64,000 nt of DNA from an uncultured Erythrobacter sp. Its GTDB lineage: Bacteria > Pseudomonadota > Alphaproteobacteria > Sphingomonadales > Sphingomonadaceae. The notes under the pieces were generated by a model that was given only the letters and a program-made list of their open reading frames with translations, did not search any database and was not told the origin of the DNA. The position numbers and the translations under genes are program-made. The stretch covers positions 434,001-498,000 of the forward strand of contig CANLPY010000002.1 of the NCBI GenBank assembly GCA_947493165.1, read 5' to 3'. Positions 22,428 through 27,482 of this stretch are shown here, one piece after another (the first letter of the stretch is position 1; every line of letters begins with the position of its first letter).

Positions 22428-22570
22428 AGCAATAGCTTTAGAGGGGCTTTTAGGGGAATTAAGGGGGAAGGACAAACTCATCCTGTTGGCAAGAGTGATC
22501 GATTCTCTTGCGCGCTTGGCCGCAGGCATACACAGATAAGTCTAGCTTAGAGCTGAATGAGGCGCCGCCG

Positions 22571-23731
22571 ATGGCTGAAGAACAGATAAATATCCAACCG
22601 GTAAACGGCAAGCGCGGACGCGCGCAATTTGTCGATTTGGGGCGCGAATTTGCCGCAAAAGTGCCGAATTCTGTTCCGCAGTTGCGCTCCGAATTGCTTG
22701 AGCTCGTCAATCCGAACAAGAACCCTTTCTTCGGTCACGGCAAAGCACAACTGTTCATTGCATATCGAGGCGGGCAAGCCGTTGGACGGATTTCAGCACA
22801 CTACGATGAACTTGCCCTCGCAATGCCTGCCGAGCAAGGGTTTGGCCCTGGCACCGGCAATTTCGGCTATTTCGATGCAAGCAATCAAGAAGTCGGTGCA
22901 GCCCTGCTGGAATACGCTGAAAACTGGCTGCGCGATCAAGGAATGACCCGCTCAGTTGGGCCGATTTCGTTGGCAATGTGGGAAGAGCCCGGCCTTTTGG
23001 TTCGCGGTCAGGACCACGCACCGATGATAATGATGGGCCATCACCCACAAAAATACGCCGGGTGGATCGAGAGTTCGGGTTATGAGCGGGCGAAAACACT
23101 GCACACCTATGATCTCGATATTGTTCAAGACTTCCCTCCTTTGGTGCAAAGGATCGTCAAATCTGGCCGGCGCAATGAACGGATCAGAATTCGCCGAGTA
23201 GACAAATCCAATTGGGACAGAGACGCAGCGATTGTTCTCTCAATCCTTAATGATGCATGGTCAGATAATTGGGGTTTCACGCCGTTCACACCGGAAGAGG
23301 TGGCCTATGCTGGCAAGAAGTTAAAGACGATCATCTTTGAACCGCTCAATATGATTGCGGAGGTTGATGGCAAACCGGTTGCATTCATGTTGACATGGCC
23401 GGACATAAACGATGTGCTGGCGCGCATAAATGGCAAGCTCTTGCCCTTTGGGTGGTTCCATATGCTGCGATGGCTGCGCGCGCCTCGCGGTTCTGGCATG
23501 CGCGTCCCACTGATGGGTGTATCGAAAGAGCTGCACAATTCGCGGTTAGCCAGCCAGCTTGCCTTTATGATGATCAATGAGATCCGAGAAAGCGCTTATA
23601 CAACGTTTGAATCCAAACGGGCAGAAATCGGTTGGATATTGGAAGACAATCAAGGAATGGTGGCGATCGCCGATACGATCGGTAGCAAGATCAATCGCGA
23701 ATATGCAATCTACACCAAATCACTGACTTGA
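22571..23731 (+). CDS. GNAT-fold acetyltransferase-like protein, function unknown
   Basis: From the ATG at 22571 the product has 386 residues; the frame extends to 22508. Recognisable parts are the segment starting NPFFGHGKAQLFIAYRGGQA, GRISAHYDELAL, GTGNFGYFDASNQEVGAALL and MTRSVGPISLAMWEEPGLLV. The C-terminal half has another acetyltransferase-like region (WSDNWGFTPFTPEEV). The pattern is that of a widespread bacterial family annotated only as N-acetyltransferase. The gene is followed by the small RNA region upstream of phyR. Substrate unknown. Confidence 0.7.
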   Translation: MAEEQINIQPVNGKRGRAQFVDLGREFAAKVPNSVPQLRSELLELVNPNKNPFFGHGKAQLFIAYRGGQAVGRISAHYDELALAMPAEQGFGPGTGNFGYFDASNQEVGAALLEYAENWLRDQGMTRSVGPISLAMWEEPGLLVRGQDHAPMIMMGHHPQKYAGWIESSGYERAKTLHTYDLDIVQDFPPLVQRIVKSGRRNERIRIRRVDKSNWDRDAAIVLSILNDAWSDNWGFTPFTPEEVAYAGKKLKTIIFEPLNMIAEVDGKPVAFMLTWPDINDVLARINGKLLPFGWFHMLRWLRAPRGSGMRVPLMGVSKELHNSRLASQLAFMMINEIRESAYTTFESKRAEIGWILEDNQGMVAIADTIGSKINREYAIYTKSLT

Positions 23732-23740
23732 ACGGGACCA

Positions 23741-23776
23741 AAGAAAAAGGCCTTCATACCGGAGCATGAAGGCCTT
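23741..23776 (-). terminator. Rho-independent terminator of a minus-strand transcript
   Basis: AAGGCCTTCAT (23747-23757) pairs perfectly with ATGAAGGCCTT (23766-23776). The T-rich run TTTTTCTTT lies on the minus-strand side, so the terminator serves a transcript reading leftwards, where no protein gene exists. On the plus strand there is no T-tract. Confidence 0.75.
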
Positions 23777-23827
23777 GGGATCGTATCACCTGCCGCTTGG
23801 ACGGGAGGGGGGTCTCGGCGGTGATGC
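23741..23827 (-). ncRNA. Candidate anti-Shine-Dalgarno small RNA beside phyR
   Basis: Reading the minus strand, a stem of ACCGCCG (23822-23816) and CGGCAGGT (23795-23788, one bulge) displays a 20-base loop that contains CCCCCCUCCC. A perfect 11-bp terminator hairpin with a U-run follows. The start near 23827 is inferred from the upstream sigma-EcfG-like motif. C-rich anti-Shine-Dalgarno loops are known in alphaproteobacterial stress small RNAs such as GsrN of Caulobacter and cuckoo RNAs of Rhodobacter. No protein frame fits the segment. Position beside phyR suggests a part in the general stress response. Confidence 0.6.
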
Positions 23828-23833
23828 AATAAG

Positions 23834-23858
23834 AATGCATCATTTGGGGATAGGTTCC
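23834..23858 (-). promoter_or_regulatory. Sigma-EcfG-like promoter for the small RNA (one mismatch)
   Basis: On the minus strand GGAAC (23858-23854), a 16-base spacer and CATT (23837-23834) resemble the sigma-EcfG signature GGAAC-N16/17-CGTT with one change in the -10. It points at the small RNA candidate. A palindrome (GATGCA with TGCATC) overlaps the -10. Confidence 0.45.
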
Positions 23859-23901: not shown

Positions 23902-23927
23902 GGAACCTAGCTAGCCTTCTTGGCGTT
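23902..23927 (+). promoter_or_regulatory. Sigma-EcfG promoter of phyR
   Basis: GGAAC (23902-23906), 17 bases, CGTT (23924-23927) matches the alphaproteobacterial sigma-EcfG consensus exactly. It lies about 150 bases before phyR and implies positive feedback of the general stress response. Confidence 0.75.
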
Positions 23928-24073: not shown

Positions 24074-24868
24074 ATGTCGCTAGGTCAGGATGTTGCTACC
24101 AATCTCCCATTTCTGCGCCGCTATGCGCGCGCATTGACAGGATCGCAGGCGACTGGCGATGCATTTGTCCGAGCGACTTTGGAGGCAGCTCTTGCAGACG
24201 AAGAGTTGAAACGATCCCTCGAAGAAGGGCGCGTTGCCCTTTACGCGGCGTTCAACAAGGTCTGGTCGAGCGCATATCTTGACGTTGATGAAGGTCGAAC
24301 CTCGACCGGAGAACATGAAGCGGCAGCAAATGAACGCCTGAGCGCGATTACACCGCTAAATCGTCAGGCTTTGTTACTTACCACTCTGGAGGACTTCACA
24401 CCTGCGCAAGCTGCTCAAATCATGGAGCTTGCTCCAGATGCGATCGAGAAACTTGTGCAAGAAGCAGTTACTGAGATTGATCGGGAATCGGCGACCAACG
24501 TTCTGATCATCGAAGACGAGCCGCTGATATCAATGCAGCTTGAAGATTTGGTCACCTCTCTTGGTCACACAATCTGCGGTACCGCCGCGACCCGCACGCA
24601 GGCGCAGGAAGTGGTTAGTCAAAAAACGCCTGGTTTGGTTCTAGCGGACATCCAGCTGGCTGATGGTTCGTCAGGGCTTGATGCTGTGGATGACATACTC
24701 TCGATTGGTGAAGTGCCGGTCATCTTCATTACAGCCTACCCAGAGCGCTTGCTTACCGGCGATCGACCAGAGCCGACCTACCTCGTGACCAAGCCCTTTG
24801 AGGAACGCACTGTAAGTGCAGCGATCAGTCAGGCGTTGTTCTTTGGGTCTAGCAAGCCGCTTGGCTAA
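24074..24868 (+). CDS. phyR: PhyR, anti-anti-sigma response regulator of the general stress response
   Basis: This 264-residue protein has the PhyR layout. An N-terminal sigma-like domain (about residues 5-130) mimics EcfG. A C-terminal receiver domain (VLIIEDEPLISMQLEDLV) has the phospho-acceptor Asp in VLADIQLADGSSG and the conserved Lys in YLVTKPFEERT. When phosphorylated it binds NepR and frees EcfG. GGAGG stands before the ATG. An exact sigma-EcfG promoter lies upstream, and the sensor kinase, nepR and ecfG follow, so the whole core pathway is here. Confidence 0.95.
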   Translation: MSLGQDVATNLPFLRRYARALTGSQATGDAFVRATLEAALADEELKRSLEEGRVALYAAFNKVWSSAYLDVDEGRTSTGEHEAAANERLSAITPLNRQALLLTTLEDFTPAQAAQIMELAPDAIEKLVQEAVTEIDRESATNVLIIEDEPLISMQLEDLVTSLGHTICGTAATRTQAQEVVSQKTPGLVLADIQLADGSSGLDAVDDILSIGEVPVIFITAYPERLLTGDRPEPTYLVTKPFEERTVSAAISQALFFGSSKPLG

Positions 24869-24916: not shown

Positions 24917-26638
24917 CTATTCTCTTATCCGAAAGTCGTCTCTTTTGCGAACAGCAACTCTCAAGATGCAGCAAACGCCAGTGCGGTGAAAATGAAGCTC
25001 AACCGGTTGCTTTAACTCGTGAGCTACGATCTTTTGTATTAGATCAGTCCCGAACCCAGATTGTTGAGTCCCGCTGACTTGTGGCCCACCACTTTCTTGC
25101 CACTCGATTTCGACAAGGTGCGGTTGGACCAGCCGCCAATCGACAGAAACAGCACCGTGATCGTCGCTCAACGCGCCGTATTTGGCAGCGTTGGTGGCGA
25201 GTTCATGGATTGCCTGACCGAATGAAAGTGCGTCATTCGGCGCTAGCTCCACCGCCGGCCCTGACAGATTGACCTGATCGCCATGTCCAGAGCCGACATG
25301 CGCCAGTTCTGCCTCAATCACGCTACGCAATGGGGTCGTGCCCCACTCGGATTGTGTCAGCAGATCGTGCGTGGCTGACAAAGCGCGAATGCGCCCTTCT
25401 AAACTATGCGCGAACTCATCCAGAGTGTTGGACCGGCGGCGCGTGAGCGATAAAATCGACAAGACATTGGCCAATGTATTCTTTACCCGGTGGTTGAGCT
25501 CGCGCGTGAGCGAATTGCGGATCGAATATTGCTCTTCAAAAAAGGCTAAGCGACCGGCATCCTTCGCAGCTTGGCGAGACACCATATGCGCCAATATAAA
25601 AAGCAGAACCGCGACAGAGAAACCGAACAGAAGCGTCGCATAAGACATCGCGGTCAAGAAACCGGCTGGAGGTGAAGCAATTGCAAGGGTGAAGCGTCTG
25701 TCCGCGATTAAGACTGGCTGTTCAATCACATCGTCTGCTGCCGTAAAACTTCCCATCGATGCGACTAGATTTTCGGGACGAGCGACATCGTCATATAGGC
25801 GGGCTCTGATTGCAGGATCAGAAGAGCTATCCAGCGCAGCCTGCAAAAGGGCGAGGCCATCAAAGGGAACAAAGACAAAACCGGAAGGTGAATTTTCAGC
25901 AAGCGCGAACGTACGGCCAACCGGCATTACGATCGCAAAGTCCGGTGCGTCTTCATTATCCCGTACTGCAGCGTCAAACAATATTTGCGTCGCGGTCGGC
26001 CCACCGTTTACAGCAGCTCGTTCAAGGGCGCGCCGAACCAATGGAGCAGCAGCAGTATCTTGAGCAATCGCTGAACCGGAACCTCCATTGCCTAGTTCAA
26101 ATGATCGCACCAAAGCGCTTGACGCGGTTGGCGATCCATCAACGGCTACCTGCGCCCCTTTGAGCTCTGCCCAGCCAATCCCGAAAGCCCCTTGCGTATC
26201 GCGGCCCAACTCAAGCTGGCTGGCGTATTTCGCGAATAATTCCGCATCTGGCGTATCAACGCTTGCGAGCAGAGCGGCTCCTGCACGCAGATATGACGTC
26301 GCATCGCTGACGCGGTGGCTCAATGCTGACTCAACTGCTCGCGCCGCCTCTTGAAGTTTTGCATTCTCTGTTTGGCGTGCTTTGCTCTCAATCGCAAAGA
26401 CACTCAGAAGCGTAACCGCCATGATAACCGCGAATAACGAAGCGGGCACGGCGCGCGGAAAGTTAAGCAACCAATCGCGCACCTGGTGCGCCTTGCTGCT
26501 CGATTTAATAGGAGATCCCTCTGCCTCTAACACTTTCAGCCCATTAATTTGCCTACCAGCACGGAACCATACATAAGCATGTTCGTTCCCACGTTGATAA
26601 GAATTGATATCGCCATACTGGCGCAACTTTTGATGCAA
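24917..26638 (-). CDS. PhyK-like sensor histidine kinase with CHASE-type sensor
   Basis: The frame gives 573 residues. A membrane helix (SLFAVIMAVTLLSVFAIES) precedes a periplasmic CHASE-like domain. A second helix (ATLLFGFSVAVLLFILAHMV) leads into a HisKA_2/HWE-type kinase with the H-box RELNHRVKNTLANVLSIL, then the N-box segment HELATNAAKYGALS and a glycine-rich GFGTDLIQKIV. Such kinases next to phyR phosphorylate it. The first 35 to 50 codons overlap the nepR-ecfG promoter, so translation may start later, for example at GTGs at 26533 or 26482. It converges on phyR. Confidence 0.85.
   Translation of the reverse strand: MHQKLRQYGDINSYQRGNEHAYVWFRAGRQINGLKVLEAEGSPIKSSSKAHQVRDWLLNFPRAVPASLFAVIMAVTLLSVFAIESKARQTENAKLQEAARAVESALSHRVSDATSYLRAGAALLASVDTPDAELFAKYASQLELGRDTQGAFGIGWAELKGAQVAVDGSPTASSALVRSFELGNGGSGSAIAQDTAAAPLVRRALERAAVNGGPTATQILFDAAVRDNEDAPDFAIVMPVGRTFALAENSPSGFVFVPFDGLALLQAALDSSSDPAIRARLYDDVARPENLVASMGSFTAADDVIEQPVLIADRRFTLAIASPPAGFLTAMSYATLLFGFSVAVLLFILAHMVSRQAAKDAGRLAFFEEQYSIRNSLTRELNHRVKNTLANVLSILSLTRRRSNTLDEFAHSLEGRIRALSATHDLLTQSEWGTTPLRSVIEAELAHVGSGHGDQVNLSGPAVELAPNDALSFGQAIHELATNAAKYGALSDDHGAVSVDWRLVQPHLVEIEWQESGGPQVSGTQQSGFGTDLIQKIVAHELKQPVELHFHRTGVCCILRVAVRKRDDFRIRE
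26563..26587 (+). promoter_or_regulatory. Sigma-EcfG promoter of nepR-ecfG
   Basis: GGAAC (26563-26567), 16 bases, CGTT (26584-26587) is an exact sigma-EcfG consensus match. It lies 84 bases before nepR and inside the longest reading of the divergent kinase gene. Confidence 0.75.
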
Positions 26639-26670: not shown

Positions 26671-26874
26671 ATGACTTCAGGAAAAAAGCCAACCTTGGGC
26701 AAAGAGGACGATCAACCCTCTGTCTCTAGCGGTAAACAGGGGCAACAACCCCAATGGGCAGATGGGCTCAAGCAGCTGTACGATGCGGTGGTCGATGAAC
26801 CACTGCCTGACAGTTTCAAAGATCTTTTGTCTCAATTGGACGATAAAAGCTCAGACGAAAGCAGCCAAAATTAA
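26671..26874 (+). CDS. nepR: NepR, anti-sigma factor of the general stress response
   Basis: This 67-residue protein carries the NepR core near its centre, ADGLKQLYDAVVDEPLPDSF followed by KDLLSQLD, flanked by disordered tails. NepR holds EcfG inactive until phosphorylated PhyR displaces it. The stop overlaps the ecfG start (TAATG), so the two are coupled. An exact sigma-EcfG promoter stands upstream. Confidence 0.93.
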   Translation: MTSGKKPTLGKEDDQPSVSSGKQGQQPQWADGLKQLYDAVVDEPLPDSFKDLLSQLDDKSSDESSQN

Positions 26875-27482
26875 TGGCTGTGGCAGAACGCTCAGTAGCC
26901 GAAAAGGCTGACTTCAAACGCGAACTCACAGAGGTGGTCCCGCACCTACGCGCGTTTGCGCGCGGTCTTTGTGGCCGGCCTGATATGGCCGACGATCTTG
27001 TGCAAGAAACAATGCTCAAAGCTTGGGCCGCACAAGAGCGGTTTGAACCTGGCACATCCATGCGAGCTTGGACCTTTGTCATTCTTCGTAATGCTTACCT
27101 CACTGACATGAGACGCAATCGCTTTCGAGGCGATTATGATGAAACCGTGGCTGAGAAGGTATTGACCGCGCCAGCAGGCCAAGAAGAACCAATCCACCTT
27201 TCCGATATGCACCGCGCGCTGTTAACATTACCTCCAGAACGGCGCGAAGCACTTTTGCTCGTGGGCGCTGGTGGCTTTTCTTACGAAGAAGCAGCCCAGA
27301 TTTGCGGCTGCGCTGTTGGCACTATCAAAAGCCGGGTTGGTCGGGCGCGGGCAACACTTAATGATATGCTGGCCGAAGGAAATATCCCTCAGCGGTCGGT
27401 TGACGACGATACTGCACACCGCGCCATCCTAGAAGAGTTGGACGATGTAGCCAGCGGCAAAAGCGAATCTGCGAAGCCCTAA
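26874..27482 (+). CDS. ecfG: EcfG, general stress sigma factor (ECF15)
   Basis: This 202-residue ECF sigma factor has region 2 (LRAFARGLCGRPDMADDLVQ and ETMLKAWAAQERFEPGT, then MRAWTFVILRNAYLTDMRR) and region 4 (LLTLPPERREALLLVGAGGF then YEEAAQICGCAVGTIKSRVG). Its place after nepR and beside phyR identifies it as EcfG. It would read the GGAAC-N16/17-CGTT promoters found here. The C-terminal tail after region 4 is acidic and variable. Confidence 0.94.
   Translation: MAVAERSVAEKADFKRELTEVVPHLRAFARGLCGRPDMADDLVQETMLKAWAAQERFEPGTSMRAWTFVILRNAYLTDMRRNRFRGDYDETVAEKVLTAPAGQEEPIHLSDMHRALLTLPPERREALLLVGAGGFSYEEAAQICGCAVGTIKSRVGRARATLNDMLAEGNIPQRSVDDDTAHRAILEELDDVASGKSESAKP

Follow-up and report, generated by a model that had tools for sequence, protein, structure and literature searches.

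The CcsR/CuckooRNAs of Rhodobacter carry a C-rich loop with the CCUCCUCCC motif and are associated with stress, a DUF1127 gene and RpoH-type promoters. GsrN, which is described as confined to the Caulobacteraceae on the basis of BLASTN, pairs with katG through its C-rich loop, and 32 of the 67 enriched GsrN partners that were analysed are predicted to make use of that loop (PMC5869019). The same source presents putative homologues in Rhizobiaceae on the basis of an EcfG site, closeness to the stress locus, an exposed C-rich loop and, in part, transcript data. The Caulobacter SisA-D RNAs are described as acting through UUUCCUCCCU (PMC12559287). Here, a further candidate of this kind is described from the window, namely, the whole 64,000-nucleotide stretch of DNA of an uncultured Erythrobacter sp. 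that was analysed.

The candidate occupies the minus strand of a 342-base gap between two plus-strand genes (the first ends at 23731, the second starts at 24074), and, reading along that strand, consists of GGAAC, 16 bases, CATT, a hairpin, a linker and a terminator. The −35 element GGAAC (23854..23858) and the −10 element CATT (23834..23837), 16 bases past it, were read directly and form the sigma-EcfG-like promoter that a preliminary description of this DNA had proposed. The predicted small RNA (23741..23827) is approximately 85-87 nt long; its start is inferred from its spacing to the promoter and from where the block conserved among homologues sets in, this block extending from near 23824-23827 to the terminator. 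The 5′ arm of the first stem (ATCACCGCCG, 23816..23825) and its 3′ arm (CGGC, a bulged A and GGTGAT, 23785..23795) present a C-rich loop of 20 bases, AGACCCCCCTCCCGTCCAAG (23796..23815). The intrinsic terminator region (23741..23776, including the U-rich tail) contains a 13-bp stem at 23776-23747 followed by TTTCTT, and the gap houses no minus-strand ORF of at least 60 amino acids that this terminator could serve. The 92-nt RNA folds at −39.4 kcal/mol, compared with −20.8 (s.d. 2.9) for shuffled sequences (z = −6.37), none of the 200 being as stable.

The genes around the small RNA make up the core of the general stress response. On one side phyR (24074..24868, plus strand), encoding the response regulator and anti-anti-sigma factor (Pfam PF22029, PF22233 and PF00072; NF006623), reads away from the RNA; it is followed by a HWE/CHASE histidine kinase gene (24917..26638, minus strand; PF07536, PF03924) and by the nepR-ecfG pair (26671..27482, plus strand), 2.8 kb from the small RNA in the window, with nepR at 26671-26874, the gene of the ecfG-type sigma factor at 26874-27482, and PF18557, PF04542 and PF08281 assigned to the two genes jointly. 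On the other side, the terminator faces the 3′ end of a plus-strand gene (22508..23731) that is retained beside the RNA in 49 of 50 loci despite matching no Pfam, NCBIfam or PDB entry. With Rfam 15 at gathering scores the window yields two tRNAs only, both elsewhere, and nothing at the small RNA, in agreement with the earlier statement that it matches no annotated RNA; under permissive settings the best weak match in the region is PyrR (22.1 bits against a cut-off of 54), and six further homologous loci gave no match at E 0.5. A literature search found no paper naming this RNA in its title or in the start of its abstract, the search being confined to literature available without subscription.

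The position of the promoter is fixed. Among 77 distinct copies, selected by the loop sequence CCCCCTCCCGTCC, GGAAC is found 34-37 bases before the stem in all 77, its start lying 34 bases from the TCA of the stem arm in 69 copies, 35 in seven and 37 in one. The full motif GGAAC-N16/17-NNTT is found in 75 of the 77 (CATT in 68, CGTT in three, GGTT in two and CTTT in two), the remaining two having GTAT, and by inspection the promoter is also present in the seven loci left out by the loop filter, including a diverged form discussed below. Unlike these promoter words, the spacer and the outer flanks vary among homologues. Genome-wide, GGAAC-N16/17-[CGT][AGT]TT is no commoner than expected by chance (40 occurrences in 400 kb of the own genome, against 42.9 on average in 10 block-shuffled versions), so that it is the fixed position in homologues that counts. 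An EcfG-type promoter of phyR itself, GGAAC-N17-CGTT, is found at 23902..23927 on the plus strand, GGAAC-N16-CGTT stands at 26563 before nepR-ecfG, and 44 of 50 loci have an EcfG-like motif in the 400 bases preceding phyR. As for the −10 element, CATT is described as a frequent non-consensus EcfG −10 box in Sphingopyxis granuli, and as functional in vitro in Sphingopyxis, being weaker than CGTT (PMC7083833), and for Sphingomonas melonis Fr1 an EcfG motif GGAAC-N17-20-GTT is given, with sites ending in CATT in the accompanying table (PMC6599016).

A BLASTN search with a query of 136 bases detected the RNA in 50 of 119 family genomes, the own genome included, and a covariance model (R1) built from 50 copies (alignment A1) recovered the same 50. 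When R1 was applied to a deeper sample of the family, 155 of 397 genomes, belonging to 40 of 96 genera, were found to carry the RNA, and 242 gave no match. The preliminary description had named the loss of stem and loop in related genomes as one outcome that would count against a small RNA gene; the 155 carriers keep both. In the order, 31 of 147 genomes matched at E 0.1, the strong matches being clearly separated from the weak ones, and in the class 10 of 289, of which three were strong, all inside the family. The weak matches outside the family are mostly ordinary terminators by eye and were not counted as members. Two of them, in other families of the class, do have CCCCTCCC: L107 1501-1581 (G295; E 0.018), with CCCCCCTCCC before a terminator, and L111 1501-1573 (G313; E 0.085), with CCCCTCCCGTCC before a terminator. 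BLASTN detected no plasmid copies, and loop matches on two viral contigs, which by eye have no such stem and terminator, were discarded as not being the RNA.

In all of the 50 loci first examined phyR is on the opposite strand and divergent from the RNA, which bears out the link with phyR proposed from the window, as far as gene order can. The two are directly adjacent in 41 loci. In the other nine (L010, L013, L017, L020, L021, L022, L030, L033 and L038) approximately 0.8 kb of additional DNA contains an ORF of 248-283 amino acids on the strand of the RNA, Crp-like in both of the two that were scanned; in the 41, the stretch from the RNA to phyR has no ORF above 52 amino acids on that strand. 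The other side of the RNA is flanked by a gene of the 22508-23731 type in 49 of 50 loci, and in L034 the RNA sits at a contig end. Synteny alone is weak evidence because the loci share descent. In the first sample, 56 of the 69 family genomes without the RNA have PhyR, at 46-61% identity, compared with 67-81% in the other 49 carriers. Among 58 phyR loci of these non-carriers, a GGAAC motif directed away from phyR was found within 700 bases in 45; not one of these motifs is followed by CCCCTCCCGTCC, and five are followed by some C-run. Among the 11 genomes of the genus of the window (own included), G223 is the sole one without the RNA, and it also lacks a PhyR match.

Covariation, which the preliminary description had put forward as a check, was found in both stems. 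Of the 81 loci submitted, 80 were aligned (A2) and one, L113, fell below the limit; pairs are formed in 97.5% of the cells of the A2 structure, an alignment that was fitted to the model and hence leans towards it, and in 33-58% when the structure is slid. Changes on both sides of a pair were found in 100 cells, as opposed to 22.7 in shuffles, a value that none of the 500 shuffles and no slid control reached. In helix 1, 98.6% of cells are paired, two of the 10 pairs have double-sided changes and three are invariant, and the terminator, helix 2, has double-sided changes in all eight modelled pairs. RNAalifold applied to A2 also yielded the two helices, double changes supporting 14 of the 22 pairs. 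Conservation in the 80 copies is highest in the core of the loop (99.4%; whole loop, 96.8%), followed by the stem arms (90-94%) and by the terminator stem (82.4%). The loop has the form C5-8UCCCGUCC with two exceptions, its C-tract ranging from 5 to 8 bases, and CCCCCTCCCGTCC is found in 78 of the 80 aligned homologues. At the level of sequence, the reading of the element as a small RNA gene is supported.

Variant copies were also observed. In L113 (G080:C35, 1472-1545, minus strand) the identical loop, GAGACCCCCCTCCCGTCCAAGC, recurs in a second RNA gene, where an unrelated stem carries it; this gene has a terminator of its own, is preceded by GGAAC and lies between ORFs resembling a glycosyltransferase and a transposase. 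In G235 (L100/L289; PhyR identity, 61%) the RNA beside phyR has diverged: it stands behind GGAAC-N16-CGTT and has the loop GGTCCCCCAACCACCCCCCGCACC, which is nearer to the six-C tract inferred for GsrN. In L164 (G076) an EcfG-type promoter divergent from phyR is followed by two hairpins, the loop of one of them containing CCCTCCTCACCCCCC; this may be an independent C-rich RNA adjacent to phyR, in another genus.

Genome G596, which encodes EL222 (100% identity over 222 residues) and which we take to be that of Erythrobacter litoralis HTCC2594, carries the RNA (E 2.9e-17) behind GGAAC-N16-CATT, in the gene order 22508-23731-type gene, RNA, phyR and kinase. The legend of Figure 9 of PMC5869019 indicates no apparent gsrN-like gene in E. 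litoralis, for a strain that may differ from that of G596. A conserved RNA with an EcfG-type promoter by phyR in E. litoralis and in 154 other genomes, in part of which the adjacency to phyR was read, would fill this gap.

The search for targets with complementary leaders, another of the checks suggested at the outset, gave none that was convincing in the own genome, in the leader pairs or in the katG leaders described below. Exact and one-mismatch matches to ACGGGAGGGG occur at 60 places in the own genome, and the 30 that were read in context included no convincing leader; the same pattern read backwards, as a control, occurs at 169 places. The exact complement is found at four sites, one of which is the antisense of the RNA itself, and never at a clear start: the other three are inside an ORF, between two opposite-strand ORFs (MFS and GST proteins by eye) and 230 bases upstream of a small ORF, in what by eye seems to be a mobile region. 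An intergenic stretch of the own genome, ACGGGAGGGGAGTCT (L292 1501-1515; G000:C1:2247194), upstream of a small ORF, is nearly complementary to 15 loop bases. Control of katG as exerted by GsrN does not appear to apply here. The gene is present in 37 of 40 carriers, and the 30 leaders that were read contain no G-rich partner site, the longest loop matches being 4-8 bases with no shared G-tract. The hexamer TTGGAC, the complement of the loop's GUCCAA side, is found in 11 of these 30 (L320-L349), within an ATCGATTRRA block that lies upstream of katG in 14 of the 30 loci; this block may be a protein-binding DNA site or a partial loop match, and, because it may be a DNA site, TTGGAC was not counted as a target.

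Duplexes between the loop and the leaders of orthologous ORFs were also evaluated in 400 kb each (approx. 13%) of the own and the E. litoralis genomes, with starts assigned by a simple rule, leaders and first codons covered, and 60 shuffled loops as controls. At −16 kcal/mol the real loop formed strong duplexes in 31 of 301 reciprocal-best pairs, shadow frames included, compared with a mean of 86 for the shuffled loops. With shadow frames removed the values were 21 of 182 pairs and a mean of 50.2, all 60 controls being at least as high, and for the 76 pairs having a Shine-Dalgarno-like sequence in both genomes they were 13 and 22.3, with 57 of the 60 controls equalling or exceeding the real loop. 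Since long C-runs need G-runs, which are presumed to be rare, this depletion suggests that partners are few, rather than none.

Taken at the level of sequence, the comparisons establish that a conserved and structured RNA element, preceded by a promoter of the EcfG type, lies next to phyR. The RNA is probably transcribed, under sigma-EcfG control and as a part of the stress response, a reading with good support, and regulation by base pairing through the loop may be proposed more cautiously. On balance, the element probably encodes a trans-acting small RNA that is functionally analogous to GsrN, is controlled by EcfG and acts through its loop in an Erythrobacter-centred clade. Consistent with this reading are the fold, the spread in the family, the divergence from phyR, the promoter spacing, the covariation, the conserved loop, the G080 copy, the joint absence of RNA and PhyR in G223 and the activity of CATT as a −10 box; what speaks against it is the depletion in leaders, the failure of the searches to find a conserved target, the katG leaders, the weaker activity of CATT, the shared descent of the loci, the chance-level frequency of the promoter word and the 242 of 397 family genomes without a match. 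In the corresponding mechanism, stress would activate PhyR, PhyR would free sigma-EcfG from NepR, and sigma-EcfG would transcribe the small RNA as well as phyR. The loop could then, and this step is less certain, base-pair with a small number of partner RNAs, altering their translation or stability, and the small RNA would give the general stress response of this clade its post-transcriptional arm.

The readings that differ from the GsrN analogue mainly concern what the loop does. The whole loop may be kept for one or very few partners, perhaps a small RNA or an RNA-binding protein, in which case the RNA would be a regulator of narrow specificity, with a stress output unlike that of GsrN and katG, and the loop a module that can be moved to a new stem, as in G080; we regard this as possible, if somewhat doubtful. 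It would be rather unlikely that the loop serves as a sponge or decoy, titrating one small RNA or RNA-binding protein instead of mRNAs: a single partner would predict a loop that is nearly invariant in 80 copies and that recurs on another stem, as observed, loop partners are not enriched in leaders, and CrfA is described as a precedent for sponge pairs in Caulobacter, but the searches made identified no partner and GsrN, the closest analogue, is described as acting on mRNA. The preliminary description had favoured a broader role, with the loop masking the ribosome binding sites of many mRNAs in stress as an anti-Shine-Dalgarno brake. The loop does contain CCCUCCC, complementary to GGGAGGG, and the mode of action of the SisA-D RNAs through UUUCCUCCCU (PMC12559287) lends the idea a parallel; however, in both the 301 and the 182 pairs nearly all shuffled loops have more strong partners than the real loop, the four ACGGGAGGGG sites avoid clear starts, no convincing site emerged among the 30 of 60 places read, and the GUCC part beyond the Shine-Dalgarno-like stretch is conserved too, so that the loop complement not being enriched in leaders makes such a brake improbable.

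Two further readings deny that the element is a small RNA gene. It might be only the 3′ end, or terminator, of an unannotated minus-strand transcript, originating from the kinase gene, which is on the same strand 1.1 kb upstream, or from the extra gene, Crp-like where scanned, that reads towards the element in nine of 50 loci. A terminator would, however, have no need of a loop conserved at 99%, GGAAC stands at a fixed distance in 77 of 77 copies, and the 41 loci with no ORF above 52 amino acids on the strand of the RNA in front of phyR offer no such gene, all of which makes this origin very improbable. A short coding transcript, perhaps leaderless, is hardly credible. Of the 80 copies, 30 have ATG in the first three aligned columns, 14 have TTG and seven CTG, and a 13-codon frame follows from such a start in 21 copies, yet 29 of 80, including the copy in the window, have no such codon there, the frames stop at differing places or never, leaving no conserved frame in the alignment, the C-tract of variable length shifts the frame, and the paired columns covary as RNA.

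Returning to the described systems, the proposed likeness to the CcsR/CuckooRNAs turned out to be weak: the C-rich loop and the link to stress are shared, and the CCUCCUCCC motif is missing from the 80 aligned copies. With the alpha-R8 RNAs (SisA-D and MmgR) the RNA has in common the alphaproteobacterial origin, the terminator and a single-stranded stretch complementary to Shine-Dalgarno sequences, but those RNAs are described as having the motif UUUCCUCCCU, scattered loci and unrelated promoters (PMC12559287), whereas the RNA presented here has a different motif and, as far as the main copy is concerned, one locus and one promoter type; the single-stranded 10-mer UUUCCUCCCU of alpha-R8 is absent from the aligned copies. 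The likeness to GsrN holds better, judged from the description in the paper. In 289 class genomes searched with R1, no strong match lay outside the family. Three features used in PMC5869019 for GsrN-like genes are found here, namely, an EcfG site, the proximity of ecfG and phyR and, in the predicted structure, an exposed C-rich loop. As in GsrN of Caulobacter crescentus and its relatives, there is an EcfG-type promoter, the usual site is near ecfG-nepR-phyR and the exposed 5′ C-rich loop is the best conserved part, with a six-C tract in GsrN as inferred from the target list of that paper. The context of the loop differs, being GAGACCCCCCUCCCGUCCAAG here and approximately GACGCCCCCCGAC as inferred for GsrN from the same source, and GsrN is described as pairing with a G-rich stretch of katG for which the 30 carrier katG leaders have no counterpart. 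The putative GsrN homologues of Rhizobiaceae belong to another order, and their likeness to the present RNA is one of closely similar naming criteria (PMC5869019). Thus, as judged from its sequence features, the RNA is to be set apart from GsrN itself, with which it shares promoter, place and loop, the G-rich katG site being missing from the 30 leaders read. It offers a sharp test case for why C-rich loops stay so conserved and, placed beside GsrN, suggests that EcfG-controlled RNAs with such loops recur as components of the general stress response.
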